This document shows, in pieces, positions 1,501 to 40,545 of a stretch of DNA of 64,000 bases. Position 1 is the stretch's first letter. Every line of letters starts with the position of its first letter. The position numbers were made by a program, and so were the translations under genes. Below the pieces are notes generated by a model. That model did no database searches. It saw only the letters and a list, made by a program, of their open reading frames with translations, and had not been told where the DNA came from. The stretch comes from Lunularia cruciata. Lineage: Eukaryota > Streptophyta > Marchantiopsida > Lunulariales > Lunulariaceae. Where the stretch lies: the NCBI GenBank assembly GCA_948567375.1, contig OX419757.1, positions 52,635,665-52,699,664 on the forward strand, in the 5' to 3' direction.

Positions 1501-2192
1501 TGTGAGCCGGCCTGTCTCTCACTCAGGATGAACCTCTGATGGCTATTATGGTAGCGCACCATGGACTAAGAAGGCAAGGAACCCCAACTCCATCATACTC
1601 CTCCAAGGCTAACACTCCAAGACTCAAGACATTGCTCACTAGAGAACTCAATGAGAGAGAGATAGTTGCAAATGAAAGGATGATGAGTACCTCCTCACTC
1701 CTTGTTTATATACTTGTGAAATAGTTACGTACCAAAGTTACTAATTACCGTAGTAACTCAAGTTACTAGACTAAAAGTCAAGTAAAGTCAAAAAGTAGAA
1801 AGGAATATCCATTCACATGGGCATATTCCCCTAAGCATGTGGTCTTATCTTGACCCAACCACTAAAGCAAGGATTCCTTCACATGGGCTATCCTTGGACT
1901 AAAGAAGAATCCAAAACAAAAAGGCTTGCGGGCCCAAGAGTTCTCAACTCTTTCCCCAAAGCCAAACACCTAGGAATAATACCAAGTCAACACACTAAAA
2001 TCCAAAATAGTGGTGCTCATCTTTTCTACTTCCTCTAAAGTAAGGTCCCATCTATCTTAGCTATGACTAACTTTAGCTAACCATGACTAACATAGAACCA
2101 TCCTTTATCTCTATATAAATAATATCTCTTAAGTACTTGTAATACCAAGCTAAATATCACAATACCACACACATGCACAAATGGGTGTTACA
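1501..2192 (-). repeat. B1 3' LTR
   Basis: Left LTR of B1, which is the 3' LTR because the element reads on the minus strand. It begins TGTGAGCC and ends GTTACA on the + strand. Length and sequence match 8643-9334. The short reading frames inside it recur identically in the other LTR, so they are by-products of the repeat and not genes. A TATA-like element is at 1704-1712 on the minus strand. Confidence 0.95.
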
Positions 2193-2203
2193 TTTACCCC
2201 CGG
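2193..2203 (-). other. B1 polypurine tract
   Basis: Read on the minus strand this is a G/A-rich run (CCGGGGGTAAA) directly against the 3' LTR. That is the expected place and composition for the plus-strand DNA primer. It lies 37 bp beyond the end of gag-pol. Confidence 0.7.
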
Positions 2204-2240
2204 ACTAAGTTTTCACTTTGTCCTCAAAGTGAAGGTCTCT

Positions 2241-7067: not shown

Positions 7068-7308
7068 CTTAACCCCTCACTATCTTTCTTTTCTCTCAAT
7101 TTTTTTTTTTTTTTCCTCTTTTCTTTTCTCTCACTCTATTACTAATAGAGTATATACATGACTAACACCATCTGAGAATAATCCACTCTAGGGAACACAA
7201 AAGGTTCAGGTTGCTCCAAGATTTCTATAGCAACATCAAATCCTAGAGTGCATATTAATCTAACTCTCATGGATAGTTTATCCATAAGTTGAAAGATTAT
7301 CTCCATCA

Positions 7309-7806
7309 CTAATCTTGAGAACTAGCTGATGAAGGTGGTAGTATTTCTGTAGCTGTACTAAGACTCTCTCCAAGATCCTTCACCAAAGTTTCCAAAAGTG
7401 CTTTTACTCCACTACACTCATGTCCTTTTGGAAGTCCTTCAACTCCACAAACCTCACACAACTCCTTGGTCTTAGATCTTCTCCCTCCCAATCTTGGTGA
7501 AGAAGGTCCAACATGCAAACCCAAGTCAAGTAAGCCTCTCCTTTCCCTCAATCTCTTGCTCTCAAAGGTCAATGGACATGAACTTGCCTTATGTCCCTTC
7601 TCTCCACATAGAAAGCACTTAGACTCACTCTTTCCTCCAAGTGGTGTAGGTTTTTGGATCCTCTCAACACTCTCTTCAAATTCTATTGTAAACTCTCTTT
7701 TCCTCAAATCCACCCCTACAATCACCTCAAACCCTTGGGGAACCTTGCATAATCTCAATTTCCACTCTTGATGACTCTCCATGTTCCCCAAGATGAATCT
7801 AAACAC
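7309..7806 (-). CDS. B1 extra upstream ORF, zinc-knuckle protein (165 aa)
   Basis: An open frame on the same strand as gag-pol, placed between the 5' LTR and gag and ending 241 bp before the gag-pol start. I do not recognise it as a known family. Visible: a hydrophilic N-terminal half, a perfect CCHC knuckle at residues 64-77 (C64, C67, H72, C77), a basic stretch around 84-116, and a second Cys/His cluster (C117, C120, H129, C131). The tail is Ser/Thr-rich. Met1 or Met9 could be the start. The single-knuckle pattern suggests nucleic-acid binding, perhaps to the element's own RNA; this is inference. It lies in the leader of an apparently intact element, which argues against chance, but only one full copy is available here. 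Confidence 0.6.
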   Translation of the reverse strand: MFRFILGNMESHQEWKLRLCKVPQGFEVIVGVDLRKREFTIEFEESVERIQKPTPLGGKSESKCFLCGEKGHKASSCPLTFESKRLRERRGLLDLGLHVGPSSPRLGGRRSKTKELCEVCGVEGLPKGHECSGVKALLETLVKDLGESLSTATEILPPSSASSQD

Positions 7807-8621
7807 TCAAACATGCTTTTTGTTGATCTCAAACTTCTCATGCATGAGATCTCCACTCTGCAGAATTGACCCTTCCTCACAATGTCACTCAAATCTCCCA
7901 ACTAATATGTCACAGTCCTCTGAAATTTTCCACACTTGATCACAACTCTAGGGCGTCCCTCCCTGCAAAATTTTAGATCTTTTCATCGAGCCATTTGGCC
8001 TAGACACCTTTCTATTCAGCACCCATATTTCAGATTTGGTCTGAAAACCACCCCCCTCACTTCAAAAACTCATAACGCACTGCGCAAAAATGATCTCTCT
8101 CTAATTTTTGTGGCACCAGGTAGGATACAATGCACTGAATTTTCTTGGAAATTTTCAGGACAATTCACTAAACATTGAAGAAATGGCAGACTCTGTACAA
8201 TTTTCCAGAGAGCATGCAGTTGCGGGAGCACTTTACCCTATCAACTTTCAAAAATTCTAGCCCAATGCGCATAGAAGCTCTCTCAATAATTTCAAGTGTG
8301 TTAACTGAAAGATAACCCAATCTATAATGTGTAGAAATCTCAAGTCCAGATCTCAAACTTGAGATTTTGCCCAAAATCACCTTAATCCCCAAAATCTGCA
8401 ATCCACCTCACACAATCTCTCCAATTCCTCTCATGTGTACAAGATGTACAAAATCACCTCAAAGACATCATAATGAACTACAGGGTATACAAATGGATCT
8501 TGGTTCTCTAACATAAGTTCAGCCCTCTCCTCTCCTAATGTTCTCTCCAAGTGAGCTCTCATAGCCTCCTTCTGCCTAATGTAGAATTGGACGCGGAACA
8601 TTATCTTGCCTTCTAGAGAGG
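7807..8621 (-). other. B1 5' leader, untranslated
   Basis: About 0.8 kb between the primer-binding site and the extra ORF. Only short unconserved reading frames are present. The stretch 7068-7308 between the extra ORF and gag-pol is also non-coding; it holds a long run of T on the + strand near 7100-7112 (poly-A in the sense direction). Confidence 0.6.
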
Positions 8622-8638
8622 TCCCGGCAACGGAACCA
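8622..8638 (-). other. B1 primer-binding site, tRNA-Asp-like
   Basis: Four bases inside the 5' LTR, the minus strand reads TGGTTCCGTTGCCGGGA. It ends (on the + strand) with ACCA, as a tRNA 3' end would. It resembles the site used by many plant gypsy elements that prime with tRNA-Asp, differing at two positions from the TGGCGCCG... form that I know. Confidence 0.7.
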
Positions 8639-8642
8639 AAAA

Positions 8643-9334
8643 TGTGAGCCGGCCTGTCTCTCACTCAGGATGAACCTCTGATGGCTATTATGGTAGCGCA
8701 CCATGGACTAAGAAGGCAAGGAACCCCAACTCCATCATACTCCTCCAAGGCTAACACTCCAAGACTCAAGACATTGCTCACTAGAGAACTCAATGAGAGA
8801 GAGATAGTTGCAAATGAAAGGATGATGAGTACCTCCTCACTCCTTGTTTATATACTTGTGAAATAGTTACGTACCAAAGTTACTAATTACCGTAGTAACT
8901 CAAGTTACTAGACTAAAAGTCAAGTAAAGTCAAAAAGTAGAAAGGAATATCCATTCACATGGGCATATTCCCCTAAGCATGTGGTCTTATCTTGACCCAA
9001 CCACTAAAGCAAGGATTCCTTCACATGGGCTATCCTTGGACTAAAGAAGAATCCAAAACAAAAAGGCTTGCGGGCCCAAGAGTTCTCAACTCTTTCCCCA
9101 AAGCCAAACACCTAGGAATAATACCAAGTCAACACACTAAAATCCAAAATAGTGGTGCTCATCTTTTCTACTTCCTCTAAAGTAAGGTCCCATCTATCTT
9201 AGCTATGACTAACTTTAGCTAACCATGACTAACATAGAACCATCCTTTATCTCTATATAAATAATATCTCTTAAGTACTTGTAATACCAAGCTAAATATC
9301 ACAATACCACACACATGCACAAATGGGTGTTACA
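8643..9334 (-). repeat. B1 5' LTR
   Basis: The right LTR, and the promoter-bearing one, since the element reads on the minus strand. It has the same 692 bp as the left LTR. The A1 protease frame resumes just after it, at 9335. Confidence 0.95.
8846..8854 (-). promoter_or_regulatory. B1 LTR TATA-like box
   Basis: On the minus strand this reads TATATAAAC, followed about 30 bp later by a CT/AG-rich stretch. It is the best TATA candidate in the LTR. A second AT-rich candidate (TTTATATAGA) lies nearer the LTR start in the sense direction. Confidence 0.5.
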
Positions 9335-9789
9335 GAGCAGTGTTATACTCCATGGGTTTCAGTATTGACTATTGGGAAGAGATAGCCTCCTATAGACCAG
9401 GTTGGCAGTCTGGTGATAGATGGGTATGTCGCCTACCAATACGCTTCAATAGTGGTAGTCTTGGCTCACTATAATCCGAGACCATGGTAGCATCAATTTT
9501 AGCTTTCAGTGGTGCAGTTACTTGGCCTGGTGACTTGTTAGAAGGGAATGCCCATGTAGAGGATACTCTAGTACCAAAGGAGATCACTCCAATTTGGAGT
9601 ACAAGTGAGATTGTTCCATTTACCTTGGATGATCCATTGTGGAGTTCAGAGGAGGCATTAGAGCAGCATGCAGATCAGTTGATGTAGTAGGCTTGGAGTG
9701 GAGCCTTTGTACCATTAGGAGATGAGTGTGAGGATGAGCCTCCAGAGTTGATTACTTTGACACCTCTAGATACCACACTCATTGCTTGG
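9335..9789 (+). pseudogene. A1 protease end and linker to methyltransferase
   Basis: Continuation of the A1 polyprotein after B1. The frame starts with a GAV-LYSMGF-type sequence that joins the sequence before 1500. It then runs through a Trp- and Gly-rich stretch (9350-9480) and an acidic segment (9484-9687) that ends in two stops. It links retropepsin to the methyltransferase domain. I do not recognise a separate domain in it. Confidence 0.65.
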
Positions 9790-10760
9790 CAGTATCTAGT
9801 AGAGAGGATATGTCTATTGGAGTTGTTCGGTGGGATTAGCACCAAACTAGTTGTGGTATTACAGACGGGTATACAAGTACAAAGGTACTTGTATGTAGAG
9901 AGAGATGAGAATATTAGGTGAGTCTCTCTACATCATGTGGCACACTTGGCCTATTGATATCTGGAGTTATTACCGATGTCAAGAGTCAAAGGTTACCAAA
10001 AGGCCCTACCAGTAGACATTTCCTTATTGGGGGCGCATGATTTGGAGAGATATATGCCTATTCACTTGGTGATTTTTGGATGGCCATGTCGGGGACATAC
10101 ATGTGCTGCTAGAGGTTTGGGTCTTCAGGATCCTAGTTCTGGTGTATTTTGGGAGATATTATGGATACTACAACATCTTCAGGTTCATCAGTCTATTTTT
10201 CCAACTTACCTTTTGGAGAACATTCCTTTGATGGGCGATTCTTGCACTAGAGTGGTGGCAAGTACACATCAGGTCCATTCTTGGATGGGACCTGCTATAT
10301 TGTTAGATGTAGCCAGAGTGGGATCATGGGCTCATCGTCTTCATCTTTGGTGGACAAACCTCTTACCCAAAGAGGTTCTATAGCGTGCTTATGATGGGAT
10401 TCAGTGACTTGACAACATCCTTGTTGATGATATCTTGGATGTTGGGCATCAGTCTCAGAAAATGGTTGTGGTTGATAGGTCACCTATGACAGTGGTAAAC
10501 CTAGTTGTATAGCCTAGAGCCGCATTTCCTACACTCATGAGTTTCCTAGGCTCTCATGCTTTCTGAGAGGGAGGACCTAGACTTGTTGGGACTCATAGTT
10601 ACAACAATTGGTGGAGCCCAACGCTGATGAGAGAGAGCGGGCAATGGGTTTTGCACCGGTATTACCATTGTTCCAACAATGGTAGAGGCATCCAGGCGTC
10701 AAGTGTTAGGTCAGGCTATGGACCTGAACTGTTTGACCTAGATTGTGAGTTTTGGGCTTG
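9790..10760 (+). pseudogene. A1 C5-cytosine DNA methyltransferase domain, decayed
   Basis: This domain would transfer a methyl group from S-adenosylmethionine to carbon 5 of cytosine. The C5-methyltransferase motifs appear in canonical order. Motif I, for cofactor binding, is LLELFGGIS at 9814-9840. Motif IV is GWPCRGHTCA at 10078-10107, with the catalytic Cys at 10087-10089. Motif VI is ENI at 10216-10224. Motif VIII is AHRLHLWWTN at about 10335-10364. Motif IX-like AFPTLMSF starts near 10523. Motif X has ERERAMGF near 10640 and GQAMDLN near 10710. The target-recognition region between VIII and IX is only about 50 codons. Decay: stops at 9919-9921 and about 9954, a 1-base deletion just after AMGF, and a stop after motif IX. 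The methyltransferase lies between protease and RT of a gypsy polyprotein, an order repeated in A2. Capture of such enzymes by retrotransposons is known from some algae and dinoflagellates (from memory). Confidence 0.85.
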
Positions 10761-11269
10761 GCAGAGCAACATAGGATGCACTTAATAGGCATCACTACTT
10801 GGACACTTGTGAGCCTTGTGCCTATCACAACAATTCAAGCATAGCTGGGGGCAATGGACCGAGTGGACATGGTATTTGTGGGACACAACCAATAGCTATT
10901 AGGGAGAGTGGTCTACTTGGAGTCCATCCAGGTGAGCATGGGCTACTTGGATTACGCCCTTGGTCCACTTGAGATGCAGCTAGAGGACGTGTGGAGCTTG
11001 CAGCCAAAGTGGAGGGAGTTTTTCACACAAAGGTTGGGACCTCTAGTGGTCAAGGGCATGACACTATTGCTCCTAAGGGCCCAATGTAGCAGTGCAGTCA
11101 ATACGTTTTCCACTCCTACTACAATTACAGAGGATACTTGGGAGCAAGATCTTGGACCCAAGCTTATTGGAGAGGAAAGATGGAGGGTTTGGAGGTTCTT
11201 GAGGAGCCATACAAGTTGTATTGCCTTTAGTATGAAGGATTTGGGTGCTCTAAAGGGAGCTAGTATACA
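10761..11269 (+). other. A1 conserved linker between methyltransferase and RT
   Basis: Translates, across frame changes, into a Gly/His-rich stretch. Pieces recur in A2 (59441-59960): GPSGHG and LLGVH.GEHGLLGL. A later segment contains EEPYKLYCL, then a stop, then YEGFGCSKG just before the RT. I do not recognise a known domain. Similarity between two independently decayed copies suggests the source element made it as protein. Confidence 0.55.
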
Positions 11270-11999
11270 GATTGAGCTGACTAGCAATACACCAATTTTC
11301 TGACGTCCTTGTTGATATAGTGAGATGTAGAGGATATTGATTTAGAGCCAAAGTAGTGACCTTTTTGAGGCTAGTTTGGTGGAGATTTCACATGGAGAGT
11401 ATGCATCAACAAAAGTGATGCCAGCCAAGAAGGATATGCATGGAAGCTACACAAATAGGCAGATGTGTAGAGATTACCATCCTATCAACCAACAGACCAG
11501 GGTTGATCGGTATATCATGCCTACACTAAAGGAGATTTTTGATGCAATTGGGCATGCAAAGGTCTTCAATACATTGGATCTTTGAGCGAGATATCATTAG
11601 TTGCCAATTAGGGAGGAGGATAACTCCAAGATAGCATTTTGGGCTATTGATCCTCACGGCAAGGATGTGTTATATCAGTGGAGGTTCTTACCATTTGGGT
11701 TAAAGGACACTCTTGCTGAGTTCTAGAGGGTCATGGATAGGATCCTAGTTGGATTGGATTTTGCTTGGTGCTATATTGATGAAATTTTGGTCTATAACAC
11801 TACTGTGGAGGAGCATGAGAGACAATTGTTGGAGGTGTTTGAGAGGTTGAGATCTCATGGACTCAAATTACATCTAGGGAAGTGTAGGTTCTTCCACGAG
11901 CAGGTTGAGTATTTGGGTCACACTATCTACCCGGAGGACTTTGTGTTCAACAGACCAAGGTGGAGGCTATTGCACATATTCTTTGGCCTACGGATGTGA
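11270..11999 (+). pseudogene. A1 reverse transcriptase, decayed
   Basis: Ty3/gypsy RT. Visible pieces are the RPINRQTR-type fingers motif (11470-11510), a LDL-x-ARYH palm segment with stops (11570-11605), FLPFGL (11685-11703) and the active site at 11772-11783, which reads YIDE where YIDD is expected. KLHLGKCRFF and YLGH follow (11865-11925). Stops fall where Arg and Gln are expected (TGA and TAG), consistent with C-to-T changes. The second active-site Asp is lost, so the copy is dead even apart from the stops. Confidence 0.85.
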
Positions 12000-13330
12000 G
12001 CAGAGTGTGAGCATTCCTTGGGTTGGCAAACTTCTATGCCGATATGTTAGAGGATTTAGTGCTATTGCCAAGGCCTTGACCAAGCTGACCAAGCTTACAC
12101 AGGAAAGGTGTTGGGGAGATGAGCAGGAGAGAGCTTTTTTAGAGCTCAAGGAGAGGTTGACATTTGCTCCTATTTTGAGGAGACTGATCAAAGAATGTCT
12201 ATTTCAAGTTCATACTGATTGGAGTTTGTTGGGGCTTAGAGCGATGCTCACCCAACATGATGATGAGGAGAAGGAGTTTGTGGTGGCCTATGCTAGTTGC
12301 TCCAACAATTCAACAAAGGCAAAGTATAGTTCATATGAGGGAGAGTGCTTGACAGCAATTTGGGAAGTAGCACATTTTTTATGTTACTTATTTGGTAACC
12401 CCTTCACTCTTATCATTGATCTGTAATACTCATTTGTGCATGTGTGTGGTATTGTGATATTTAGCTTGGTATTACAAGTACTTAAGAGATATTATTTATA
12501 TAAAGATAAAGGATGGTTCTATATTAGTCATGGTTAGCTAAAGTTAGTCATAGCTAAGATAAAGGGGACCTTACTTTAGAGGAAGGAGGAAAGATGAGCA
12601 CCACTATTTTGGATTTTAGTGTGTTGACTTGGTATTATTCCTAGGTGTTTGGCTTTGAGGAAAGAGTTGAGAACTCTTGGGCCCGCAAGCCTTTTTGTTT
12701 TGGATTCTTCTTTAGTCCAAGGATAGCCCATGTGAAGGAATCCTTGACTTAGTGGTTGGGTCAAGATAAGACCACATGCTTAGGAGAATATGCCCATGTG
12801 AATGGATATTCCTTTCTATTTTTTTGACTTTACTTGACTTTTAGTCTAGTAACTTGAGTTACTACGGTAATTAGTAACTTTGGTATGTAACTATTTCACA
12901 AGTCTATAAACAAGGGGTGAGGAGGTACTTATCATCCTTTCATTTGCAACTATATCTCTCTCATTGAGTTCTCTAGTGAGCAATGTCTTGAGTCTTGGAG
13001 TGTTAGCCTTGGAGGAGTATGATGGAGTTCGGGTTCCTTGCCTTCTTAGTCCATGGTGCGCTACCATAATAGCCATCAGAGGTTCATCTTGAGTGAGAGA
13101 CAGGCCGGCTCACAAATCATCAGCCACTGAAGTGGTTGATGGAGTCCAACAAGCTTTCAAGGAAGCTTACATGATGGGCTCTGATTTTACAAGAGTATGA
13201 TTTCATAGTTGTTCCCAGACCTAGAGTGGTGAATCGTGATGCAGATGGGTTGAGTAGAAACCCATGTCCCAGCCAACAGGATCAGACCAGAGCACATTGG
13301 CATGGTGAGACAGATGAGGAGATGGTGCCA
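12000..13330 (+). pseudogene. A1 RNase H, split by a solo LTR
   Basis: RNase H of the A1 polyprotein. The first part (12000-12421) carries the connection domain and a TDWS.LGLRAML stretch with the first catalytic Asp and the later YSSYEGECL segment. The frame stops in a Leu-Ile-Ile-Asp end and resumes at 13119 with His-Gln-Pro-Leu-Lys-Trp-Leu once the B2 solo LTR and its 4-bp duplication are removed. The NRDADGLSR sequence at about 13232-13260 closes the domain. Confidence 0.8.
12422..13114 (+). repeat. B2: solo LTR of family B
   Basis: 693 bp, starting TGTAATACTC and ending GGCTCACA. It is the reverse complement of the B1 LTRs as written, so its sense direction is +. It is clearly diverged from them and has no internal region. 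Flanks GATC (12418-12421) and AATC (13115-13118) fit a 4-bp target duplication with one later change. It interrupts the A1 RNase H frame. Confidence 0.9.
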
Positions 13331-14094
13331 GGTTGGTATGCATTGGCCTTTCTGTGTATATTTTTAGAGGCTTTGGTGGTATCTCTCTCAGTGCATACAA
13401 GAGGAGTTATTGAGGTCATAGATCTAGAGAGTGAAGATATTGGTACAATTTAGCAAGACATTCATGATGATGTCTTAGTGATGGACTATCTTTGCATTGG
13501 TGTTGTGGGTGGTATAGTTGGGACCAAGGAGAGAGACCGTGTTCTTCAGCGAGCCAGACGGTTCAGATTGGAAGGCAAACACCTTTTATGTGTATGGGAG
13601 GATAGTAGAGTGTGAGTAGTACCACTTCCATCTCAGAGACCACAATTGGTCCGTCATGCTCATGAGGAGTTAGGACATTTTGGAGTAAAGCATACATATA
13701 GCTTACTCTAGAGTCATTATTGGTGGCGCGGTATGAAGACCAAGGTACAATAGTTTGTTACCAGATGTGTGGTTTGTGACCAAGTTAGAGCATCATTCAA
13801 TGCTCCTACGCCACAGTTACACCCATTACCTATCATGGGATTGGGTTACCATTGGAGTTTGGACTTTGCTGGACTGTGAGACATTATTGGTATGTTTTGG
13901 TGATGGTGGAGCACTTCTCCAAGTGGATTGAGTTGGTGGCCCTTCTTGACAAGTCTAGTGAAGGGACAACTTACTCGTTCTTGGATCGAGTTTTAAGTCA
14001 TTTTGGTGCACCAATTGAGGTTTTGATTGATCAGGGTACATAGTTCTTGGGGGAGTTTCAGGTCTTGTGTGACAAGGCTTTGATTGATCACTGT
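13331..14094 (+). pseudogene. A1 integrase, N-terminal and core part
   Basis: The zinc-binding domain HAHEELGHFGVKH...RCVVCD lies at about 13649-13780. The core begins with a SLDFAG segment (13855-13872, first catalytic Asp) and a VEHFSKWIELVALLDKS stretch. LIDQGT near 14024 carries the second Asp. Stops interrupt all frames. Element C1 is inserted at 14094; the third catalytic residue, Glu, lies beyond it in GLAERVVQ at about 21750. Joined across the insert, the frame reads through. Confidence 0.85.
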
Positions 14095-14140
14095 TGTAAC
14101 AATATGGAGTTTAGCGACGAAGTTAGTCGGGCTAACAAAG

Positions 14141-14168
14141 TTTAGGGTTTAAGGGTTTAGGGTTTAAA
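14141..14168 (+). repeat. Interstitial telomere-like repeat in C1 5' LTR
   Basis: Four head-to-tail units of the plant telomere type: TTTAGGG, TTTAAGGG, TTTAGGG, then a decayed TTTAAAG. The matching place in the 3' LTR (near 21323) and in both C2 LTRs lacks it, so it was added after C1 inserted. Confidence 0.75.
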
Positions 14169-14268
14169 GTAAGCACATAAGACAAAGTAGCCTAGAATAT
14201 TCCGGAAGTATCTAAGAAGCTTCTTGGGAAGCTTCTAGACTAGCTTAGCTTGCACCTCAAGTAAGTAG

Positions 14269-14283
14269 CTTCTAGAAGCTTCC
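14269..14283 (+). promoter_or_regulatory. Heat-shock-element-like triplet in C1 5' LTR
   Basis: CTTCTAGAAGCTTCC holds three contiguous alternating 5-bp units (nTTCn nGAAn nTTCn), the heat-shock factor consensus. It lies about 140 bp before the TATA box. Further GAAGCTTC palindromes nearby are out of phase. Confidence 0.5.
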
Positions 14284-14424
14284 AACTAGCTTAGCTTGCA
14301 TGCCAAGTAGGTGGATTCTAGAAGGAAGCTTCTTGAGAAGCTTCCTAGTTAACTTGGCTTGCACTCTAAGAAAGCGGCTTGAGTAAACTTCTTGAGAAGC
14401 TTCTCAAGGGCCTTGTATGCCACG

Positions 14425-14432
14425 TATAAATA
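14425..14432 (+). promoter_or_regulatory. C1 LTR TATA box
   Basis: TATAAATA in the U3 part of the LTR, downstream of the palindrome array and about 105 bp before the LTR end. The same box recurs in the 3' LTR near 21593. Confidence 0.6.
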
Positions 14433-14537
14433 CCAAAGCCAAAGCTCATGCTAGGCATTTGGAGTTTTTCCTCATTCAAGTGTACTAATGTGAGTTTCCA
14501 TTCTCCTATTTCTCTCCTCGGATTTGGTCTTTTACAT

Positions 14538-14549
14538 TGGTATCAGAGT
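14538..14549 (+). other. C1 primer-binding site, initiator-Met tRNA
   Basis: TGGTATCAGAGT, one base after the 5' LTR. It matches the usual plant initiator-Met primer site (TGGTATCAGAGC) except at the last base. Confidence 0.9.
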
Positions 14550-15428
14550 AGGAATGGGATGGATGGAATTTATGGACCACCAAATCCACTTCCACCAAAC
14601 CATTGGGATTTTTGCATCCAAATACTACCCAAGTATCATTTCACACAGTTCATCACCTTGCACTTTGGACATGATTTTATGCATATGATCACCATATCTG
14701 AAGAACCCTTGGTGCTTCCGGTTGTAACTTATGGGGAACAGTGGACGTGCTATTTCTATGTGTTGATAAATTAGATAGATTGGGAGTGGTGTGATAAAGG
14801 AGCAACCATGGCGGCAATACCTGATGTTATCCTTGTTATGCAACAACAAATTAAGCACCTTACTCGATTGTTGGATGAACTAGATCTTTGACGACAAGAG
14901 CAAGTGGAGAGAGTACCAATCCGAGAAGGAGAAGATTGGATCAGATTCCCTAAACCCAAGGTATTTGAAGGCAAGAATCTCCCGGGTGCAGTGGAGAATT
15001 TTTTGTTCGATTGTGAACATTATTTTGAAGCTACCAATCTACAAGATGAGCTAAAATAGATTCTCTTGGCGTCGAGCCAATTGGATGGAGTAGCAAAGCT
15101 ATGGTGGAGATTCCAAGTGGAGCGAGGTGAACAAAAAATGGTTACACCAATCTTGACATGGGAAAAATTCAAGAGCGCAATAATTAGTTGGTTGCAAGCT
15201 ATAAATGCCACACAAGTTGCACGGGATAAGTTGGCAGAGTTGAAACAGATTGGCTCTGTAAGAAGTTACATCACACAGTTCCAAAACACCATCATGCAAA
15301 TTCTAGATATATTGGAAGGTGGAGCTCTAGATCTATTCATGAGGGGCTTGAAGGCAAGAACCAAATTAGAGGCAACCATGCATGAGCCACAACACTTGGA
15401 AGAAGCTATGCGGTTGGCCGAACGTTTT
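14550..15428 (+). pseudogene. C1 gag, first part
   Basis: Leader and gag of C1. From about 14805 a frame with several stops reads as retroviral-type gag: a Gln-rich coiled start, a KVFEGKN segment (14960-14985), LDGVAKLWWRFQ (15080-15115) and an RSYITQFQNTIMQ stretch (15260-15300). The best open piece is 15066-15428. It ends in an LAERF segment exactly where the 1931-bp LTR is inserted and resumes at 17365. Confidence 0.75.
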
Positions 15429-17359
15429 TGTGACAACCCGGCAAATATCACTTTTGCGGTAATCGGGTAAGTAAAGTTTGTTCCCGCAGAGATACGATTC
15501 AGAATTGGTCAAATACAAAGTCAAATAGTAACTTTTAGTTCTTCTTGATTTCTTCTTTAATCTCTCAAGGAGAAACTACACCTAAAAGAGAGTAACAAGC
15601 TCACAATCTTGACAACTTGTCACAACTACACACTCATAATCACAACATAGCAAATTCTGTCCAAACAACTCTTGATTGTGATGATTCAGATTCTCCCGAA
15701 GATGACACTTCACTGCAAAGAACAATTTCTCCTCAGAATTGTGTTCCACCTCTCGACTGAAGGCACAACTTCCTTGATCTAAATTGCTTCACATCAACTT
15801 TGTGTTGCACTCACAAATGCAGAATACTACCAACACTACAATTCCTCTCAGATTTGTCAAGGCATTACTCCGATGCACTTCACTCAAGATCAAACACACA
15901 GAATGAAGATCGAGGCTGCAAAATCCAACATCCATAGTCACACTGACTTGCACTTCAAAATTCTCCACACACTCACAAACACAAACACAGAATTGACAAT
16001 CAGAATTAATCTCAAGCAATGAGCACTAAAAACCAGCACTTCATTTTATCTATCTTCAGAAATTTGAATACTGAACAACATAATATTGCAAATGCTCCCC
16101 TTAAATACTGAAGCAAATGGCAGTTCTTCCTACCTATGCACCACTTCCTAACCCCTCTTCCTACTTGTAGATCCAAACTGACAATCCATCTCTTCATATC
16201 TGCCTATTCTTATCTCAAAATTGATACTTACACTAATCCAATGTCTATTTCATCATCGGCTTCCAAACCCAATGATCTTCCTTGTACTTCTCCTTCTTTG
16301 GGTATATCTACAACTACTAATTCCTTCACTACTTCTACTACTTCTACACTAGGAACTACCATTGCACTAAGGAGTGACTTATCTAACTCTTTATCTCCTG
16401 ACCCACTCCTCTCTAATGTGTCAAATAACAAGTCCGATGACACCTGAACTCCAATGTCTACAACATCGGGTCTAATTACAATCAATTCCTTTGCTAATTC
16501 TACTATATCCTTGTCACAAATTGTAATTGAAAGCATGGGTACACTATCTACACCTTCAATTTGTAACCCACTTTCCCCTAATCACTCATGTTAGTGACCC
16601 AAAGATACTTACAGTCTGATCTTGCACTTCGGGTATATTCACTACTGCTATTTCTCTTCTAATTTTATCATATCTTCAATCAGAACTGAAATTGAAGTCA
16701 TGGGTATCCTTACCATCTATTCTTCCTCTATCCTAACTCTCTCTTATGCCTCTGGCAAGATTCCCGAAGTCACTTTCACTGCACTTTGAGGTCCAACTAT
16801 CTCAGATCTAGTCATCTTTGTCTTGAGGCAAAGAAGCTTCTAACCCGGAGTTGTGTAAACCTGAAGTCCAAAGTCCAAAGTCCGAAGTCTCAAGTCCAAA
16901 GTCCGAAGACGCCAACCCAAAGACACTAAACTACATTGTACATCTACTCCCAAAACTTCAAATATTTGTAACTTCTTCTAAAAACCTCCAAACTTTGCTA
17001 TTTTGGTGGCAACAGAAAGCCCTGAACGAGACGCTTGCAACAAGATATAGCACGCTTGATTTGAACTTGTGGACATTGAGATATGGCCCCCGCAAGAATC
17101 CTGACCTGCAACTTCCTTTCCTCCTTCGGGTCTGCTTTCCTTCGGCATCTGATCCAAGTTTTTTCCTCCTCCGACACAAAGTAAGCTTCTTTGGGTCTGA
17201 TCCAATCCAATTCCTTCTTACTCTAACACAAAGTTGCCTTCCTTGAGCTTGATCAAAACACACATTTCCACTCATTTCTTCTCCATTTGGTTTCAATTTG
17301 GTTTAAGCAAGCCACTTCTTCTTCAAAACTTGTCTAAAATGAAAAATGTGGGTACCACA
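15429..17359 (-). repeat. Long solo LTR (1931 bp) inside C1 gag
   Basis: It begins TGTGACAACCC and ends GGTACCACA, with a perfect 5-bp duplication GTTTT on both sides (15424-15428, 17360-17364). No protease, RT or integrase sequence lies within it, so it is read as a solo LTR. The minus direction is favoured because that strand carries a TATTTAAG promoter-like box (near 16100-16112). A short direct repeat of the AAGTCCAAAGTCCGAAG type sits at about 16862-16910. Parts resemble the decayed region 28338-30312. Confidence 0.75.
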
Positions 17360-17364
17360 GTTTT

Positions 17365-17690
17365 GATTCCTTGGTGGCAACAACTTGGTCTTGACCTTGA
17401 CCTCCACAAAGCCTACCAATACACTACACACAAGTGGAGGAGCCAGCACCAATGGAGATTGATGCAATTCAACGAAGACCACTTGGCACGGCAGATAGGG
17501 AGAAACTACGACAAAATGGTGGTTATTTTTATTGTCGCCAATTGGGGCATCGCATTGCTGAATGCACACTCAAGAATGGATGACCTTGACAAGTTGCCTA
17601 AGTGGAGGTTGTGGAGCGGAACGATCAAGGAAACGAGGAATCCTAGTAGGAGAATTCAAGCCGCCTATTGGGAGCTTGATTAGTTCCAAT
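17365..17690 (+). pseudogene. C1 gag end with zinc knuckle
   Basis: Gag resumes after the solo LTR with a Trp/Gln-rich segment. A CCHC knuckle at 17524-17565 reads Y-x2-C-x4-H-x4-C, with Tyr in place of the first Cys. A basic linker leads to the protease; a stop lies at about 17682. Confidence 0.7.
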
Positions 17691-18116
17691 GGGATTAAAG
17701 GTTCGACCTATGCAAGTTTGCTTCACTTGCAAAGGTATGATATCTAATCAAGGTTGTAGGATTTTGGTTGATTTTGGAAGTTTAGAGAATTGCATGTTTA
17801 TGCAAGTAGCAAAGGAATTGGATATTCCTATCAAGCTAGTGATTGAAAGTAGTTTGATGATGGCGGATGGTAGAAAAGGTTCTACATTCTGCACCTCGCA
17901 TCCTGTTACCTTCAAGATTGGGATGGAGTATTTAGAGTGTATGAGGTTTGTAGTGGCACCTCAACACTATGATATCATTTTGGGTCTACCTTGGCTTGAA
18001 CGTCATAAGGTTCAATTTGATTGGATCCGATGCCAAATTCAAGTACAACACCAAGGTAGAAATTTCCGATTAGGTTGTCTGGCACCTCTGAGTAAAACAC
18101 CTAAGATAGTCTGAAT
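17691..18116 (+). pseudogene. C1 aspartic protease
   Basis: Open for about 140 codons. It shows ILVDFGSLENC near residues 25-35, an ADGRKGS flap-like stretch near 70 and DIILGLPWLERH near 95-106. The active-site triplet is Asp-Phe-Gly where Asp-Ser-Gly is usual. C2 has the same Phe (ILVDFGSSEKC), so the change was already in their common source. Confidence 0.8.
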
Positions 18117-18123
18117 AGTCAAT

Positions 18124-18305
18124 CCCAAGATGTGAAGTTTGTTGAGAAGGTAACCATAGAGCAAACCTTGAAGGAAGTGGAGCCCTCAAGATGGGAAGTT
18201 TGCCAAGAAGGCAACCATGGAGCAGGCTTGGAAGAGAGATGAGTTCCTAGAAGGGAAGTTTGTTAGCAAAGCAACCATAGAGCAAGCTTTAGAGGAAGAT
18301 AAGTC
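18124..18305 (+). repeat. Three 60-bp tandem repeats in C1 pol linker
   Basis: Three head-to-tail copies of about 60 bp, each coding a 20-residue unit like GKFV.KATIEQAL..., between protease and RT. C2 has the same three-copy block at about 38745-38905. Confidence 0.7.
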
Positions 18306-19323
18306 TATATTTGTGGTGTGGATCAAGCCAATTGCACAAGACCAATCTATGGAGGATCAAGAGCCTCATCAAGTTATGGTTGATCGGATAGTTAAGGAGT
18401 TTTTGGATGTGTTTTTGGATTATCTGCCGAAGAAATTACCCTCCAATCAAGGTATGCCCTTCAAGATCAAGTTATTGCCAGGGAGTACTCCAATGAGTAG
18501 ACCAATCTATTGGCTCTCACCAAAGGATTTGAAAGAGTTGCAAACAACACTTACAGAGTTGTTGGAGAAGGACTTCATACGACATAGTACCTCTCCTTAG
18601 GGAGCACTAGTACTATTTGTTCCAAAGAAGGATGGAGGACTTTGATTCTATATTGATTATTGTGGGCTCAATAAGCAAACCGTGAAGAATGCATATCCCT
18701 TGCCTTGGATTGATGACTTGCTTGATCAACTAAGTGGAGCACGTTACTTTTCCAAGTTGGATCTTTGCAGCGGCTATTGGCAAATTCCGATTGATAGAGA
18801 GAATGTGCAAAAGACTGCCTTTCACACAAGGTATGGGCATTTTGAGTGGAGACTTTTACCTTTCGGACTTACTAATGCTCCAACACTCTTCATGGATCAT
18901 ATGCATCGGGTGTTAGATGGACTATTGGATCAATTAGTGGTGGTGTTCTTGGATGATATCTTAATCTATAGCAAGATAGAGGCAAAACACGTGAATCATG
19001 TGCGAGAAGTCCTAAGACAACAACGACAATGGAAATTTTACTACAAGAAGTCGAAGTGTGCGTTTTGGCAGAAAGAGGTTACCTTCTTGGGTCATAAGAT
19101 CTCCTCAAAGGGGATCAAGATGGAAGAAGAGAAGATCAAGGCCATTACTAATTGGCCTACCCCAAAGAATGCTATAAAAGTATGGGCATTCAATGGATTG
19201 GCCAGTTTTTACCGGCGGTTCATCCATTATTATGCTCATGTGGCTGCACCATTGACTGACCTCTTGGAAGGAACTCGAGCTTCCAATGGAACACCAAGCA
19301 TGAAGAAGCATTCCAGAAGTTGA
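18217..19323 (+). pseudogene. C1 reverse transcriptase
   Basis: Two open stretches (18217-18600 and 18682-19323), broken by a TAG where Trp is expected. Motifs: SPKDLKELQ, LPWIDDLLDQLSGARYF, SKLDLCSGYWQI, LPFGLTNAP, the active site VVFLDDILIYS with both Asp codons at 18952-18957, and FLGHKIS. The catalytic pair survives. The later part runs into the connection domain, where the frame shifts at about 19290. Confidence 0.88.
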
Positions 19324-19667
19324 AACATATGGTGTCTTCAAGACCCATTCTTCAACCATATGATCCTCAACTACCTTGTGTGGTTGATTTTGATGCTTCT
19401 AACTTTGCAATTCGAGTTGTGTTGCAACATGAATTCCCAAATGGACTAGATCCCATTGCCTTTGTGTCTTGTTGACTAAATACAGCTGAAATAAATTACT
19501 TTGCTTGAGATCAGGAACAACTTGCAATGGTATATGCCACCAAGGTATGGAGGCATTATCCCTTGGGGAAACAAGTGATCATGCAAACTGATCACAAGCC
19601 ATTATTGCAGACCTTACACCTAGAGCACATGAAGAGTCAACATCATCGATGGGAAGAGCAACTCTAA
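19324..19667 (+). pseudogene. C1 RNase H
   Basis: Contains VDFDASNFAIRVVLQ (family form VxTDAS), an ISYF..DQEQLAMVYA-like stretch broken by a stop, and QTDHKPL. It is followed by the FDIKLEYRPG end that opens the integrase linker. Confidence 0.75.
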
Positions 19668-21059
19668 TTGTTTGACATTAAACTTGAGTACAGACCAGGT
19701 TGGTTCCATGTCATCCTTGATGTTCTATCACAACAACCTAATTTGAAGTCTCTTCCTCTCATTGCAGCAGCAATTACGATGGTGTCAATTGACCCCAAGA
19801 TCCATAACAAGTTTTGGTTAGCTCTACAACAAGATCCCTTCTTCCAAATGGTACATGGTCGTGTAACAATAGGTGACAAGGAATACAATACCTTCTCCTT
19901 CAAAGAAGGCCTTCTATTCCATGCGGACTGGATCTATGTTCCACCCAAAGGTGATCTTTGACTTGTGTGCCTTCAAGAAGCCCATGATTTACCCATCGCT
20001 GGTCATATGGGTGTGGACAAGACCTTGGGTACCCTCCAACGTCAATGGTGGTGGCCCAACATGACACGAGATGTTCAAGGATTTGTCCGATTGTGTGAGA
20101 GCTACCAACGTAACAAGGCCAACAACCTGAAGCCAAGTAGACTCCTTCAAATGCTTGCCATTCCATCAGCTTGCTAAGAGCATGTGAGCTTGGATCTCAT
20201 CACATCCAAAGACAAAACAAGGACACACCGCCATTGTGGTGTTTGTGGATAAGCTTAATAAGAAAATCCACTTGGCACCAACCTGTGATACCGTGGATGC
20301 TCCAACCTTAGCGCAAATCTACTTCGACAATGTCTTCAAGCATCATGGGATACCACGCGTACTCATCTCCGACTGTGATCCTTGATTTACCGTGAAGTTT
20401 TGGAAAGCACTCTTTCAGATACTTGGCACCAAGCTTGCTTTGTCCAAGGCCTATCATCCTCAAACTGATGGACAAACCAAATGTGCAAATCGTACATTGG
20501 AGGATATATTGCTAGCCTTTGTCAATGTCCACCATACCAATTGGGATGAATGTCTTGTTGTTGCAGAATTTGCCTACAACAATTCCAAACATGCAAGCAC
20601 CAGATTCTCTCCTTTCTTTCTCAATTTTGGCCAAGATTTGCTTGTTCCAGATTCTCTTCTTGCTCCTCCTCCATCTCAAGTTCCTCATACTTCCACATTC
20701 TTGACCACTTTATCCCAATCTCTCCAACAAGCCAAGTCTCACCTCCTTGTTGCTCAAAATCACCAAAATCAATATGCGGACCACCATCGTCGTGATCTGA
20801 CCTTTGAAGTTGGTGATAAATTCATGCTATCCTCCGGTAACCTCCCTCTCCCACTTGATACCCAATTTTGTAAACTTGCCTCCAATTGGATAAGACCCTT
20901 TGATATCACCCAAATTGTCTCTCCTATTGCTTATCGACTTGCCTTGCCTTGTCACATGCGTATCTATCATGTCTTTCATGTTTCCAAGTTGAAACCCTTT
21001 GTTCCTAACCCCTCTTCCTTTTCCTCTCGAGTCCAACCTCCCCCTCTTCCTATCCCTAT
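19668..21059 (+). pseudogene. C1 integrase
   Basis: The zinc-binding domain HDLPIAGHMGVDKT...CESY (19984-20105) has Tyr instead of the last Cys. The core segment LDLITS is near 20190, and SDCDP followed by a stop near 20370 gives the second Asp. The third catalytic residue is lost: DGQTKCANRT has Lys where Glu is expected (near 20480). The C-terminal part (20392-21056) is open and includes the FNNSKHAST-like and GPF-type segments. Confidence 0.85.
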
Positions 21060-21203
21060 CAATGATCATGAGGAGTACAAAGTTGATTGTATTTTTGCAC
21101 GTCACCATATTCAACGAGGCCATTGCCAACATATGGAGTACAAGGTCCTTTGGAAAGGGTATCCCCTTCATGATGCCACTTGGGAACCTCTTTCTCACCT
21201 CTA
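21060..21203 (+). pseudogene. C1 chromodomain
   Basis: The open frame 20392-21204 ends in a chromodomain with the aromatic core: EYKVDCIFARHHI, then EYKVLWKGYPLHDATWEPLSHL. In chromoviruses this domain binds modified histone tails and guides integration (family knowledge). A TAG ends the frame at 21202-21204 just after the domain core. Confidence 0.9.
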
Positions 21204-21270
21204 GAATGCACAGATGGCCATCCAGGAATTTGAAGCTTCACTGGCGACAAGGACGTCACCAACTAGCGAT

Positions 21271-21279
21271 AGGGGAATA
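21271..21279 (+). other. C1 polypurine tract
   Basis: AGGGGAATA, directly before the 3' LTR start at 21280. Confidence 0.7.
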
Positions 21280-21704
21280 TGTAACAATATGGAGTTTAGT
21301 GACAAAGTTAGTCGGGCTTACGAAGTAGCACATAAGACAAAGTAGCCTAGAATATTTTGGAAGTATCTAGGAAGCTTCTTGGGAAGCTTCCCAACTAGCT
21401 TAGCTTGCACCTCAAGTAAGTAGCTTCTAGAAGGAAGCTTCTAGAAGCTTCCAACTAGCTTAGCTTGCACGCCAAGTAGGCGGTTTCTAGAAGGAAGCTT
21501 CTTGAGAAGCTTCCTAGTTAACTTGGTTTGCACTCTAAGAAAGCAACTTGAGGAAGCTTCTTAGAAGCTTCTCAAGGGTCTTGTATGCCACCTATAAATA
21601 CCAAAGCCAAAGCTCATGCAAGGCATTCGGAGTTTTCCCTCATTCAAGTGTCCTAATGTGAGTTTCCATTCTCCTATTTCTCTCCTTGGATTTGGTCTTT
21701 TACA
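21280..21704 (+). repeat. C1 3' LTR
   Basis: 425 bp, the same ends as the 5' LTR but clearly diverged from it and lacking the telomere-like block. The A1 integrase resumes after it. Confidence 0.93.
21433..21452 (+). promoter_or_regulatory. Four-unit heat-shock-element-like site
   Basis: GGAAGCTTCTAGAAGCTTCC gives four perfect contiguous units (GAA, TTC, GAA, TTC, each two bases apart). It is also a 20-bp palindrome. Equivalent sites are in both C2 LTRs. Confidence 0.55.
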
Positions 21705-22040
21705 ACCGTACTACCTCTCGAGATCACCCTGAGGCAGATGGCTTAGCAGAGAGAGTGGTTCAAATGATGAAGAGAGGATTGCAAAAGTATGGTTTGCAAA
21801 GAGGCCACTTGGGAGAGTGGGATCTCCAGTTACCTTGGTTGGCCATGGGCTATTGATTCTGCCAGCAAGCCTCCTTAGCATCCTTCTCTCTATACTTTCT
21901 ACTCTATGGACGAGATCTAGGTTTATCTGTAGCCATTTATCAAGATGCTACTATAGTTTTGGACTTGGATGACCTTGATGTATAGATGAATGCATGTTCT
22001 TAGCGGGTAGAGATATTTTGGAGAGTGATGCCGATGGCCT
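21705..22040 (+). pseudogene. A1 integrase, C-terminal part of core
   Basis: After the ACCGT duplication the frame gives TSRDHPEADGLAERVVQMMKRGL, which carries the third catalytic residue Glu (in GLAER). A WDLQLPWLAMGY segment, a LYGRDL stretch and an acidic VLDLDDLDV segment follow. Stops interrupt it at about 21857 and 21979. Confidence 0.85.
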
Positions 22041-22500
22041 TTGAGAACTTGGCAATTGCTCATCATAGTGATACTTTATGTTATGCTACCATTTGAGGAG
22101 GAGGTTATAGACCCTCAATCCATCAATTTCATCCAGGAGAATGTATATCTTCAACAGATAGCACCAATGACACTTGATGTTTTGACAAGCCGCACTATCT
22201 TGAGAGTGTGTGAGGTTTTGCCATCTGGAGTCCTTGTATTAGAAGGATATAATGGTGTTTTTTGGAAGGATCATGTGTGCAATTGTGCGCCATGCCACCT
22301 CCCAAACATTGATGGTACTATGGACCAAAGCTTGGCACTTGTACGTGCAAGCTTGAGGTGTATGTTATGTGGCTCTTTTGGTGGAGCTACTATTATGTTA
22401 GTGTGTGATAGTTGTTCGAGAGGATGGCATATGGCATGTATGACTCCTCCCCTCATGGTGGTTCCTCAAGGATAGTGTTTATGTCCTAGATGTACTTGAC
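22041..22500 (+). pseudogene. A1 C-terminal barrel and PHD finger
   Basis: An open stretch to 22475. First comes an integrase C-terminal beta-barrel-like segment (VYLQQIAPMTLDV...ILRVCEVLPSGVLVLEGYNG). Then CNCAPCHLPNIDGT and a PHD-type zinc finger at 22359-22493 with C4HC3 spacing: RCMLCGS, LVCDSC, GWHMAC and, after a TAG where Trp is expected, CLCPRC. PHD fingers read histone H3 tails, often Lys4 state (family knowledge). It sits where chromoviruses carry a chromodomain. A2 has the same finger at 45988-46080, so it belongs to the element and is not captured host sequence next to one copy. Confidence 0.8.
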
Positions 22501-22668
22501 CTATAGCTAGTTCATTCTTTATATGGTATAGATTGCAGACAGGTGACTAACGATGGGGCTTCATAGCACCAAGCCTCCTTATCTTTGCCCATCATAGGGT
22601 ATACCATATACTTTGAGTAGATAACTATCTGGAGTTAGAGGGACCTAACCGCCAGCTAGGGAGGCAAT

Positions 22669-23320
22669 TGTGATACTTTAGAGTCTATGTATGACTTATG
22701 TGTGAGTTGTGCTTCTATAGTGTATGATGTTGACAACAATGTATGTTGTGTAGCTATGTATATGCACTACAATTGTCACACCATTTGTAGTGTCACATCT
22801 AGATTGCTTGAACACTAGAGTTCCAGTGATAGTAGTTAGAGTTATTTCAGCAGTTTCTCTGAGACTACTTTCTGACGGTCAGATTTTGTGTTTGGGGTAA
22901 TGACTTGACAATGGGGCCCACCGTCACTTTGCACTGCTTTCACCGTCAAGTGTGCCGTCAATGGGACCATTAGGGTTTCAGACCTAGCTCAAGTCCAAGG
23001 AGTATACTTTCACAGTGCAGCTCTAGAGAGCTCACTTCTCTGATGTTGAGCCTTTGAGTTCCTGCTTATGGTGGATAGAGGCTGGCGAGCGTCACCTAGA
23101 TTCTCTTAGCTAGAGTGAGTGTGGCTTGATTGTAATCAGTGCCCAGTTATTGGCAATTTATAGAGTGACAAATCACGTACTGATCTGAGTTGAGTTGAGA
23201 GTGGTAAACAATCTGATTATTGTGGCACTTTAGAGTCTATATATGACTTATGTGTGAGCTGTGTTTCTATAGTATATGATGTTGACATCTATGTATGTTG
23301 TGTAGCAATGTATATACGCA
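22669..23320 (+). repeat. A1 3' LTR-like region with a repeated end block
   Basis: It starts TGTGATACTTTAGAG right after a purine-rich tract (AGGGAGGCAAT, 22658-22668). The first about 100 bp recur at 23220-23315 (TGTGGCACTTTAGAG...). A2 has the same layout on the minus strand (45761 downwards, with the second block near 45215), so the duplication is part of the family LTR or of a fixed tandem of two LTRs. The true LTR end cannot be fixed because neither 5' LTR is in the window. Confidence 0.6.
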
Positions 23321-24104
23321 TGACAATCAAACTATCTTTCCCAGCCAAAGCTACAGGTGTATAGATAATAATGGAACAATCACTAGGATAACAAGCAAGG
23401 GTGGACTAGTTAGCTAGAGCACCAGTCCAAGAACCAAAGATCTAAGGGTCAAACCCTATTGCGCACAATCTAGCAGGATGTGCAGATTTTGCCAAACAAT
23501 GACCAAGATCTATTCTAAATTAGCTAGCCTCATGCCAGTAAGCTGACCCTTCATAGCCTTTCATAGCCAATAACTCTATGCCTCAAAGCCTCTAAACACC
23601 AAAATTTAGCCAAATGAGGCCTTTCTTCTTACCACTTCAAACCCTCTCCAAATTTGGCAAAATTGCTCCAACTCTAGCCAAAAATCAAATTTGAACTTCA
23701 GCCAAAATTTGATATAAATCCCTAAAGTTGGTTGACCGCCAAATCTTCCCCTAACTCTCCATTTGAGCCAAATTGAAATGATAGGTTTCTCCAAATCACA
23801 AATTCCCAAGGATAGGTTCCCAAATCCACCTTCAATTTCACTTTTTGAGCCCAACTCACACCAGATTGGTCCTACTTTCACCATTTGAGCTCAAAATGAC
23901 AACCATTGCTTGAAAATTGCGTCTCTTTGCTCAAAATTTGGCCAACGCTTTTGCACACCGTCTGCCTCATTGCCAAATCAACATCAATTGAACAAGTTTC
24001 TACACATTAAGGAAAATCCAAACTCTGATTGAGGTACCAACAACCAGCAAGTCTTGGAGATACCACCAACACTCTTAGTTCTTGCACCCAATTTCCCCAT
24101 GACC
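23321..24104. other. Non-coding stretch between inverted A LTR pieces
   Basis: No gene seen. Rich in CCAAA/GCCAAA-type words. It could be leader sequence of a third, inverted A element, because it lies just inside the inverted LTR fragment, but I found no convincing primer-binding site. Confidence 0.4.
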
Positions 24105-24575
24105 TCACTTCTTTGATGTAATCAGTTTGTTTACACAACTCAAATCACTCTCAAATCAGATCAGTACTTGATCTGTCACTCCATAATCTACCAACAATTG
24201 GGCATTGATTACAACCAAGCCACACCCACTCTAGCTAAGAGAGTCCAAGTGATGCTCACCGGCCTCTATCCATGATAACCAAGAACTCAAAAGCTCATCT
24301 TCAAAGAAGTGAGATTTCTAGAGCTGCACTTTGAAAGTATACACCCTAGACTTGAGCTAAGTCCCAAACCCTAATGGTCCCACTGACGGCACATCCAACG
24401 GTGCAAATGATGCAAGTGATGGTGGGCCACACCATGTAATCAATACCTTGAACATGAAATCTGACCGTCGACAAGTATTCTATGATTAATTACCAAAATA
24501 CTCATGACTACCAACACTACTACTCTAGAGTCAGAGCAATCTAGGTGCAATGCTACAAATGGCGTGATATATAAT
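24105..24575 (-). repeat. Inverted family A LTR fragment (A3)
   Basis: The minus strand of this stretch matches 22786-23215. Shared words include CCATTAGGGTTT, AGTGCAGCTCTAGA, GACGGTCAGATTT and TGTGGCTTG/GTAATCA. It lacks the first 100 or so bases of the LTR. With 22786-23215 it forms an imperfect inverted repeat with a loop of about 0.9 kb. Confidence 0.7.
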
Positions 24576-31075: not shown

Positions 31076-31415
31076 CAAAGTGACATTCATTACTAATGAG
31101 TAATCACAAGAATCATTTAGATTATATTTATAGCGAGCATGATTATTTTTTAATTATCTTTCACAATGTGCACACAATGGTGACATTCCATACTTCTAGG
31201 AATGACTTGGCCCAAGAGGTTAAATATGAAAACTATAGATTGTCACAAAGTGACATTCATTACTAATGAGTAATCACAAGAATCATTTAGATTATATTTA
31301 TAGCAAGAATGATTATTTTTTAATTATCTTTTGCAATGTGCCAACAATGGTGACATTCCATACTTCTACGAATGACTTGGCCCAAGAGGTTAAATATGAA
31401 AACTATAGATTGTCA
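31076..31415. repeat. 170-bp tandem duplication
   Basis: Two head-to-tail units, 31076-31245 and 31246-31415, nearly identical. Each runs from CAAAGTGACATTC to CTATAGATTGTCA. Only a handful of differences are visible, so the duplication is young relative to its surroundings. Confidence 0.95.
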
Positions 31416-40544: not shown

Positions 40545-40545
40545 A

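Follow-up and report, generated by a model that had tools for sequence, protein, structure and literature searches.

The 64,000-nucleotide stretch of the Lunularia cruciata genome analysed here (GenBank assembly GCA_948567375.1, contig OX419757.1, positions 52,635,665 to 52,699,664 of the forward strand; hereafter the window) raises the question of whether a C5-DNA methyltransferase (MT) and a PHD finger lying among Ty3/gypsy retrotransposon domains belong to one mobile element, or are separate host genes or unrelated inserts that came to lie side by side in a nested region. An earlier note, made from the letters of the window, had proposed a single gypsy element with the order gag, protease, MT, reverse transcriptase (RT), RNase H, integrase and PHD finger once nested inserts are removed. 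This order was found in both of the two decayed, co-linear copies of the element (termed family A) that are contained in the window together with a 5' fragment of a third copy. Family A is almost certainly a Ty3/gypsy-type element with a layout running from a repeat A1 to a repeat B2, TG...CA ends, a 4-bp target duplication, many fairly young copies, and an MT under purifying selection in the lineages that spread. This anatomy, joined to the mechanism set out below, is considered the best overall explanation of the locus, with a probability of about 0.6.

The genome (565.8 Mb) was searched with a complete MT protein (P0131), which gave 111 scored matches from 13,361 first-look candidates, and with a PHD protein (P0018), which gave 150 scored matches from 13,965 first-look candidates. 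Both lists favour well-kept copies because they hold the best-scoring candidates only, and no copy number is claimed. Twenty matches were sampled from each list (about every sixth row for the MT and about every eighth row for the PHD). Protease, MT and RT were present in 20/20 copies of the MT-selected sample, and RNase H, integrase and PHD in 19/20, at nearly constant spacing. All 20 copies of the PHD-selected sample had an MT at the expected place, 92.9-98.7% identical to that of L033, a young copy from the same genome. The single element with both domains that had been proposed is borne out by these counts, and among the 40 copies sampled by MT or PHD the only one lacking either domain was L019. 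Frames of 1428 aa around the MT occurred in 12 of the 111 matches, 8 of them without a stop inside the match, and around the PHD, frames of 1037 aa were found repeatedly in the genome; within the MT-selected 20, the 1037-aa second open reading frame (ORF2) was fully open in three copies and the 1428-aa first one (ORF1) in none. The genome has many better-kept, fairly young copies of family A.

An accidental neighbourhood of host genes or unrelated inserts can practically be discounted. It is true that inserts are nested in the window and that its MT piece scores under the Pfam cut-off, but the layout was constant in 19/20 and 20/20 sampled copies, the same order recurs in L007, a natural relative described below, and termini with target duplications enclose the unit. 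Separate neighbouring genes, which the earlier note had named as an alternative, were rejected by the survey of genome copies, since the domains share a common unit bounded by TG...CA ends and 4-bp target duplications.

The outermost parts of family A are not two plain long terminal repeats (LTRs), unlike those of standard Ty3/gypsy elements. A 449-bp repeat (A) opens the element at its 5' end and recurs close to the 3' end, where a 107-bp repeat lies on either side of it to give B1-A2-B2, and the full layout reads A1, leader, ORF1, TAG CAGCCA, ORF2, B1, A2, B2. A1 was detected in 16/20 copies with an A1-A2 identity of 95.5-99.6%, some of these values covering part of A because the stretch examined ended there. 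The element starts with TGTCAC and ends with ACGACA, and a perfect 4-bp target duplication was read by eye in 15 of the 16 copies with both ends readable. The internal B1-A2 junction, CGACA-GC-TGTCACG, resembles both termini joined head to tail and is also present in L007. Split direct repeats are the plan of DIRS/PAT elements, and family A pairs such DIRS-like repeats with a DDE integrase and 4-bp duplications; no match to a tyrosine recombinase was obtained in Pfam scans of the L007 ORFs and the L033 pieces. One copy, L018, has a further A after B2, and this B-A-B-A order points to tandem joining, or to recombination at the split repeats.

The coding unit consists of ORF1, with gag, protease and MT, and ORF2, with RT, RNase H, integrase and PHD. 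A TAG followed by CAGCCA parts the two in 20/20 sampled copies, and the one frame for MT, RT, integrase and PHD together that the earlier note had named as supporting evidence was accordingly not found. According to PMC2754532, readthrough in tobacco mosaic virus requires CAR YYA after UAG, a pattern that both CAGCCA of family A and CAATCA of L007 fit. L007 is a 9285-bp contig (CADCWO010000201.1) in which ORF1, with gag, protease and MT, ends in TAG CAA TCA, and ORF2, with RT, RNase H, integrase and PHD, lies in the same frame past the TAG. The 127 bases at its start recur unchanged at its end, as would be expected of a circularised repeat assembly. L007 is filed within a cyanobacterial metagenome-assembled genome although it is a retroelement of eukaryote type, and the record is therefore probably contaminated.

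Pfam models were applied to the pieces of the window singly and to the better-kept relatives. RVT_1 (47.1 bits) and RNase H (84.6 bits) passed their cut-offs in the window, as did PHD (27.1 bits, cut-off 24), and rve (29.0 bits, cut-off 32.6) missed it. The models suggested in the earlier note were thus recovered in the window for RT and PHD and fell short for DNA_methylase and rve, and all four were found in L033 (DNA_methylase 32.7, RVT_1 116, RNase H 125.6, rve 51.8 and PHD 47.1 bits). L007 gave 45.9 bits for DNA_methylase and 39.9 bits for PHD. As far as profile matches assign them, the domain identities that score weakly in the window are settled by L033 and L007. The order RT, RNase H, integrase (H2C2, rve) is present in L007 ORF2, in the L033 pieces and in 19/20 copies. 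The aspartic protease reached 20.5 bits with Asp_protease_2 in L007, below the cut-off of 24.3, and gave no match in the L033 piece; gag and its zinc knuckle were assigned by eye and homology. No Chromo match was obtained in L007 ORF2, which has the PHD, and the L033 piece 8500-8718 likewise contains a PHD.

The 141-aa MT piece of the window (METHYLTRANSFERASE) matched four Joint Genome Institute (JGI) proteins at 60-65% identity. The longest of these, P0001, scored 31 bits, above the Pfam cut-off, and had DNMT3B as its best solved relative (E 7e-6). Of 7995 candidates scored in an MT profile search, 443 had E <= 0.01, and the names among the 120 matches listed include Sphagnum troendelagicum and Calypogeia fissa. 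Recognizable in the alignment are the motifs DLFGG, PCQ, ENV and AHRPR as well as an end resembling motif X. Against the PDB, the profile ranked DNMT3A first (4.6e-13), with a DRM at 6e-6, HaeIII at 5e-4 and HhaI at 8e-4, and DNMT3A/B are the nearest PDB relatives by sequence. The C5-methylase motifs and the closest similarity to DNMT3A in the profile ranking place the MT with the DNMT3 family. AlphaFold models were weak (mean predicted local distance difference test scores of 45.9 and 41.6); Foldseek with the first of them put DNMT3A/B on top, a result that proves little with so weak a model. Scans of IMG/VR gave no match for the window MT piece, P0001 or the PHD alignment, and the scan with the MT alignment gave six loci on viral contigs, with 31-53% identity across a portion of the domain.

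Residues were counted in the 119 of 120 listed proteins that aligned to the reference P0131. The Cys of PCQ is kept in 88 of the 89 proteins covering that position and the Asn of ENV in 116/119. These counts bear on the possibility that the MT serves another substrate or a structural purpose, for instance by binding or modifying RNA or by helping Gag to bind nucleic acids, with little importance attached to DNA methylation. The MT does adjoin gag and protease in ORF1, and RNA methylation has been raised for a long interspersed nuclear element DNMT inactive on DNA in yeast (PMC5890265). This is nevertheless regarded as quite improbable, as the catalytic Cys and the Asn are retained to the extent just given and the nearest solved relatives, DNMT3A/B, are DNA enzymes.

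The 148-aa PHD piece of the window had 123 homologs at E <= 0.01; names among the 120 listed include Marchantia polymorpha, Calypogeia fissa and Sphagnum fallax, and the identity to the named bryophyte relatives compared was 56-75%. In P0018 and others, the integrase C-terminal part and the PHD lie inside one ORF. The best solved relatives of the PHD profile are CHD4, KDM5B, KDM5A, PHF21A, DPF3 and ATXR5, several of which read histone H3 unmethylated at K4, and the zinc ligands are conserved across the 120 homologous proteins. The PHD and MT match lists contained four contigs of at least 7 kb of the same exact size versus 0.09 expected, an overlap that pointed toward linkage and is superseded by the genome copies. 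The source annotation of three PHD ORFs (P0015, P0032 and P0057) as 'cbb3-type cytochrome oxidase cytochrome c subunit' is apparently an error.

Selection on the MT was assessed from variants shared by at least two copies. Across 200 codons of the MT in the PHD-selected copies, 22 shared variants were amino-acid-changing and 20 silent, an omega-like ratio of 0.42 (p = 0.005 against the spectrum-based neutral ratio of 2.59), and singletons numbered 52 amino-acid-changing and 12 silent (1.67). In the MT-selected sample the shared-variant ratio was 0.36 for the MT (p = 7e-4), a value biased by sampling on MT score, and 0.46 for gag, 0.44 for protease, 0.24 for RT and 0.19 for RNase H. Since its shared variants are depleted of amino-acid changes, with ratios near those of gag and RT, the MT appears to be kept in the spreading lineages about as well as these two. 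The MT of three young copies has a CpG observed/expected ratio of 0.51-0.52, against 0.26 and 0.12 for the two copies of the window.

Selection on the DNMT and the drop in CpG ratio from about 0.5 in young copies to the values of the window copies would also fit camouflage or tolerance, in which the MT mainly marks the element's own copies or complementary DNA (cDNA) as silent self, limiting damage and keeping the family, and the PHD is a mere nucleosome anchor. In PMC5890265, CG methylation by a dinoflagellate DIRS DNMT is reported and such roles, cDNA methylation among them, are discussed, the role being called unclear. The loss of CpG, however, is equally compatible with methylation by the host, and the PHD both occupies a targeting position and has zinc ligands conserved across 120 proteins. 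Self-marking of this kind as the whole explanation is considered unlikely.

The preferred explanation, a writer acting on cDNA and a reader guiding the integrase, consists of the following steps, which as a whole are the most likely course and have slightly less than an even chance of being correct. Most translation would end at the TAG, so that the MT would be made at Gag dosage as Gag-protease-MT, and readthrough of the TAG would yield a less abundant, longer product that includes RT, integrase and PHD. Located in the particle, the MT would methylate freshly made cDNA. The PHD lies at the C-terminal end of the integrase, in the position of the chromodomain of chromoviruses, and would tie the integrase to H3 tails and bias insertion, probably toward chromatin unmethylated at H3K4. 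The B1-GC-A2 junction, which stores both termini head to tail, may template the completion of the ends, as in DIRS-like elements.

Several points weigh against this explanation. The activity, expression, readthrough and targeting of the family A proteins are predictions from sequence, and reading of H3K4me0 by the PHD is assumed from the properties of its relatives. The Glu of ENV is found in only 101/119 MT proteins, and among the 40 genome copies WPCQGH is intact in 35 and L.NVP in 39. The window MT piece scored 15.5 bits with DNA_methylase, missing the cut-off of 22. Differences between copies 1 and 2 by codon position were 0.204, 0.175 and 0.213 (p = 0.20), and hence gave no codon-position signal of selection between these two copies. 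In the MT-selected sample the shared-variant ratio of the integrase was 0.78, and that of the PHD was 0.18 from five variants only (p = 0.07). L019 stops after RT, with RNase H, integrase and PHD absent within its 10 kb, and no duplication was seen at those ends of L018 that were read. Finally, old copies are CpG-poor, which indicates that the element becomes methylated anyway, whoever does it.

A bolder version is put forward as doubtful: a lineage older than the moss-liverwort split would run its own epigenetic programme, in which a DNMT3-like writer is made at Gag dosage through an obligate leaky stop, cDNA is pre-methylated in the particle, the PHD docks the integrase on H3 tails, and the ends are completed from the head-to-tail junction by a DIRS-like route with a DDE integrase; such a lineage may supply a real share of host de novo methylation. 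If true, the readthrough product would reunite a DNMT3-type enzyme with an H3-tail reader, a pairing that animal DNMT3 has through its ADD domain. Family A is in any case a testable example of a genome parasite carrying host-type silencing tools: its many well-kept copies within a single genome allow direct tests of self-marking, of insertion targeting and of what the element does to the host methylome.

The two copies in the window were compared piecewise with L033 and L007 as rulers, and the L007 ORFs map in order onto both. Copy 1 was recognized in the self-comparison of the window as plus-strand pieces at 18-1498, 9339-12421, 13116-14091 and 21705-23308, and its DNA is 87-92% identical to L033, piece by piece. 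It extends to the left of window base 1 and ends near 23327; the span of 9790-22500 given in the earlier note is too short for the element. From the left, 1-1504 comprises a gag part with zinc knuckle (1-944) and the first protease part (1044-1504), with an L033 DNA match of 88.7-90.1% and a tblastn match of L007 ORF1 at 297-1367. The remaining protease region and the linker ahead of the MT (9335-9690) and the frameshifted DNMT3-like MT itself (about 9691-10735; active-site Cys codon 10087-10089) were delimited by L007 and L033 matches. A TAG stands at the site of the conserved ORF1/ORF2 stop (11087-11089), the hexamer after it having decayed. RT and most of RNase H follow at 11095-12421 (RVT_1 and, at 84.6 bits, RT_RNaseH_2; L033 match). 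The segment 13110-14090, matched by L007 and L033, holds the end of RNase H (13110-13275) and the integrase zinc-binding part and core (13277-14090; the rve match given above), and the integrase C-terminal part, likewise matched by both, lies at 21705-22358. The PHD finger (about 22359-22496) is matched by the PHDs of DPF3, KDM5B and ATXR5 and by L033, and the terminal repeats are B1 (22667-22773), A2 (22776-23219) and B2 (23219-23327), the last being the element end.

Three nested inserts break copy 1. The first, a gypsy element on the minus strand that does not belong to family A (1501-9345, by self-comparison), is probably very young, as its 692-bp LTRs are identical and a frame of 1611 aa is still open. 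The second is a minus-strand solo LTR of the same family (12411-13115), and a further solo LTR of that family is inserted in copy 2 (61650-62330). The third is a plus-strand chromodomain gypsy with LTRs (14095-21704; Chromo 30.6 bits, RVT_1 108.3 bits), which forms a pair with another at 35293-40962 on the opposite strand, about 80-84% identical.

Copy 2 lies on the minus strand and runs from 63490 down to 45148 by self-comparison, or from 63990 down to 45153 by DNA match to L033, to which it is 75-80% identical in most pieces and 68% identical in the terminal repeats. Its parts are a gag part (62331-63990, L033 match), next to which the solo LTR at 61650-62330 is inserted, and, by L007 and L033 matches, the protease region (60921-61648), the MT with stops (59930-60920), RT and RNase H (58175-59604), the integrase (56352-57432), and the integrase end with PHD and B1-A2-B2 (45153-46477). 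Copy 1 has frameshifts and PCR where PCQ is expected, copy 2 has a stop codon inside the PCQ motif, and both copies are dead. Segmental duplication as the sole origin of the two is disfavoured, because no match continues beyond the end of B2 and the ages differ, the copies being about 90% and about 76% identical to L033. Copy 3 is an older 5' fragment on the minus strand (23326-24567), with A1 at 24567-24119 and the leader at 24117-23326, at 74-79% DNA identity to L033. Elsewhere the window has 25-bp tandem repeats (29704-29928), a 170-bp tandem pair (31076-31415) and a stretch of 22% GC (32001-34000), and no tRNA genes were found by ARAGORN in its 64 kb.

Retroelements with a captured DNMT are already known, and the statement of the earlier note that such capture occurs in algae and dinoflagellates agrees with PMC5890265. 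SymbioDIRS-Dnmt3 of dinoflagellates resembles family A in having a DNMT3-type enzyme in a retroelement of the split-repeat class, but it is a DIRS element and an independent capture, whereas family A has a gypsy-type RT, a gypsy-type DDE integrase and target duplications (PMC5890265). Ginger1 DNA transposons share the gypsy-type integrase, which one tabulated family combines with a PHD on the C-terminal side; they differ in being DNA transposons with a Ulp1 protease domain, and no MT is mentioned for them in the portion of PMC2836005 consulted. Chromoviruses are likewise gypsy elements whose integrase has a histone-reader module at its C-terminal end; this module is a chromodomain, where family A carries a PHD and has the MT in addition. 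In a partial literature search, covering titles and abstract openings, no report of a gypsy element that combines a DNMT with a PHD was found. A 2025 paper repeats the charophyte report for streptophytes and calls the LTR family Copia (PMC12344493), and according to an opinion paper (PMC6338049) such transposons are missing from land plants such as tracheophytes.

The closest known system, by description, is KnitGypsy-Dnmt3 of the charophyte alga Klebsormidium nitens, a DNMT3-bearing gypsy element which, according to the legend of Fig. 4 in PMC5890265, has repeats as in DIRS and domains as in gypsy. Both families have a DNMT3-related MT within a gypsy element, DIRS-like repeats and purifying selection on the MT (PMC5890265). 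They differ in host, bryophyte versus charophyte, and the comparison is one of descriptions. Family A has a PHD behind the integrase, and the word PHD is absent from the main text of PMC5890265, the figure lying outside that count. Its MT is placed in ORF1 beside gag and protease, before the leaky-type stop, whereas the text of PMC5890265 puts that of KnitGypsy-Dnmt3 in the Pol polyprotein ORF. The bryophyte-type hosts, the added PHD reader, the MT writer beside gag and the conserved leaky-type stop are accordingly rated as what is novel here, a DNMT-bearing gypsy being known already. With family A and its named relatives in Sphagnum and Calypogeia, retroelements that have captured a DNMT are no longer confined to one charophyte alga and dinoflagellates but reach into the bryophytes. 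A single element here unites the writer of a DNA mark with a histone-reader-type module; the writer is encoded together with Gag, ahead of a conserved leaky-type stop, and split repeats occur in combination with a DDE integrase.

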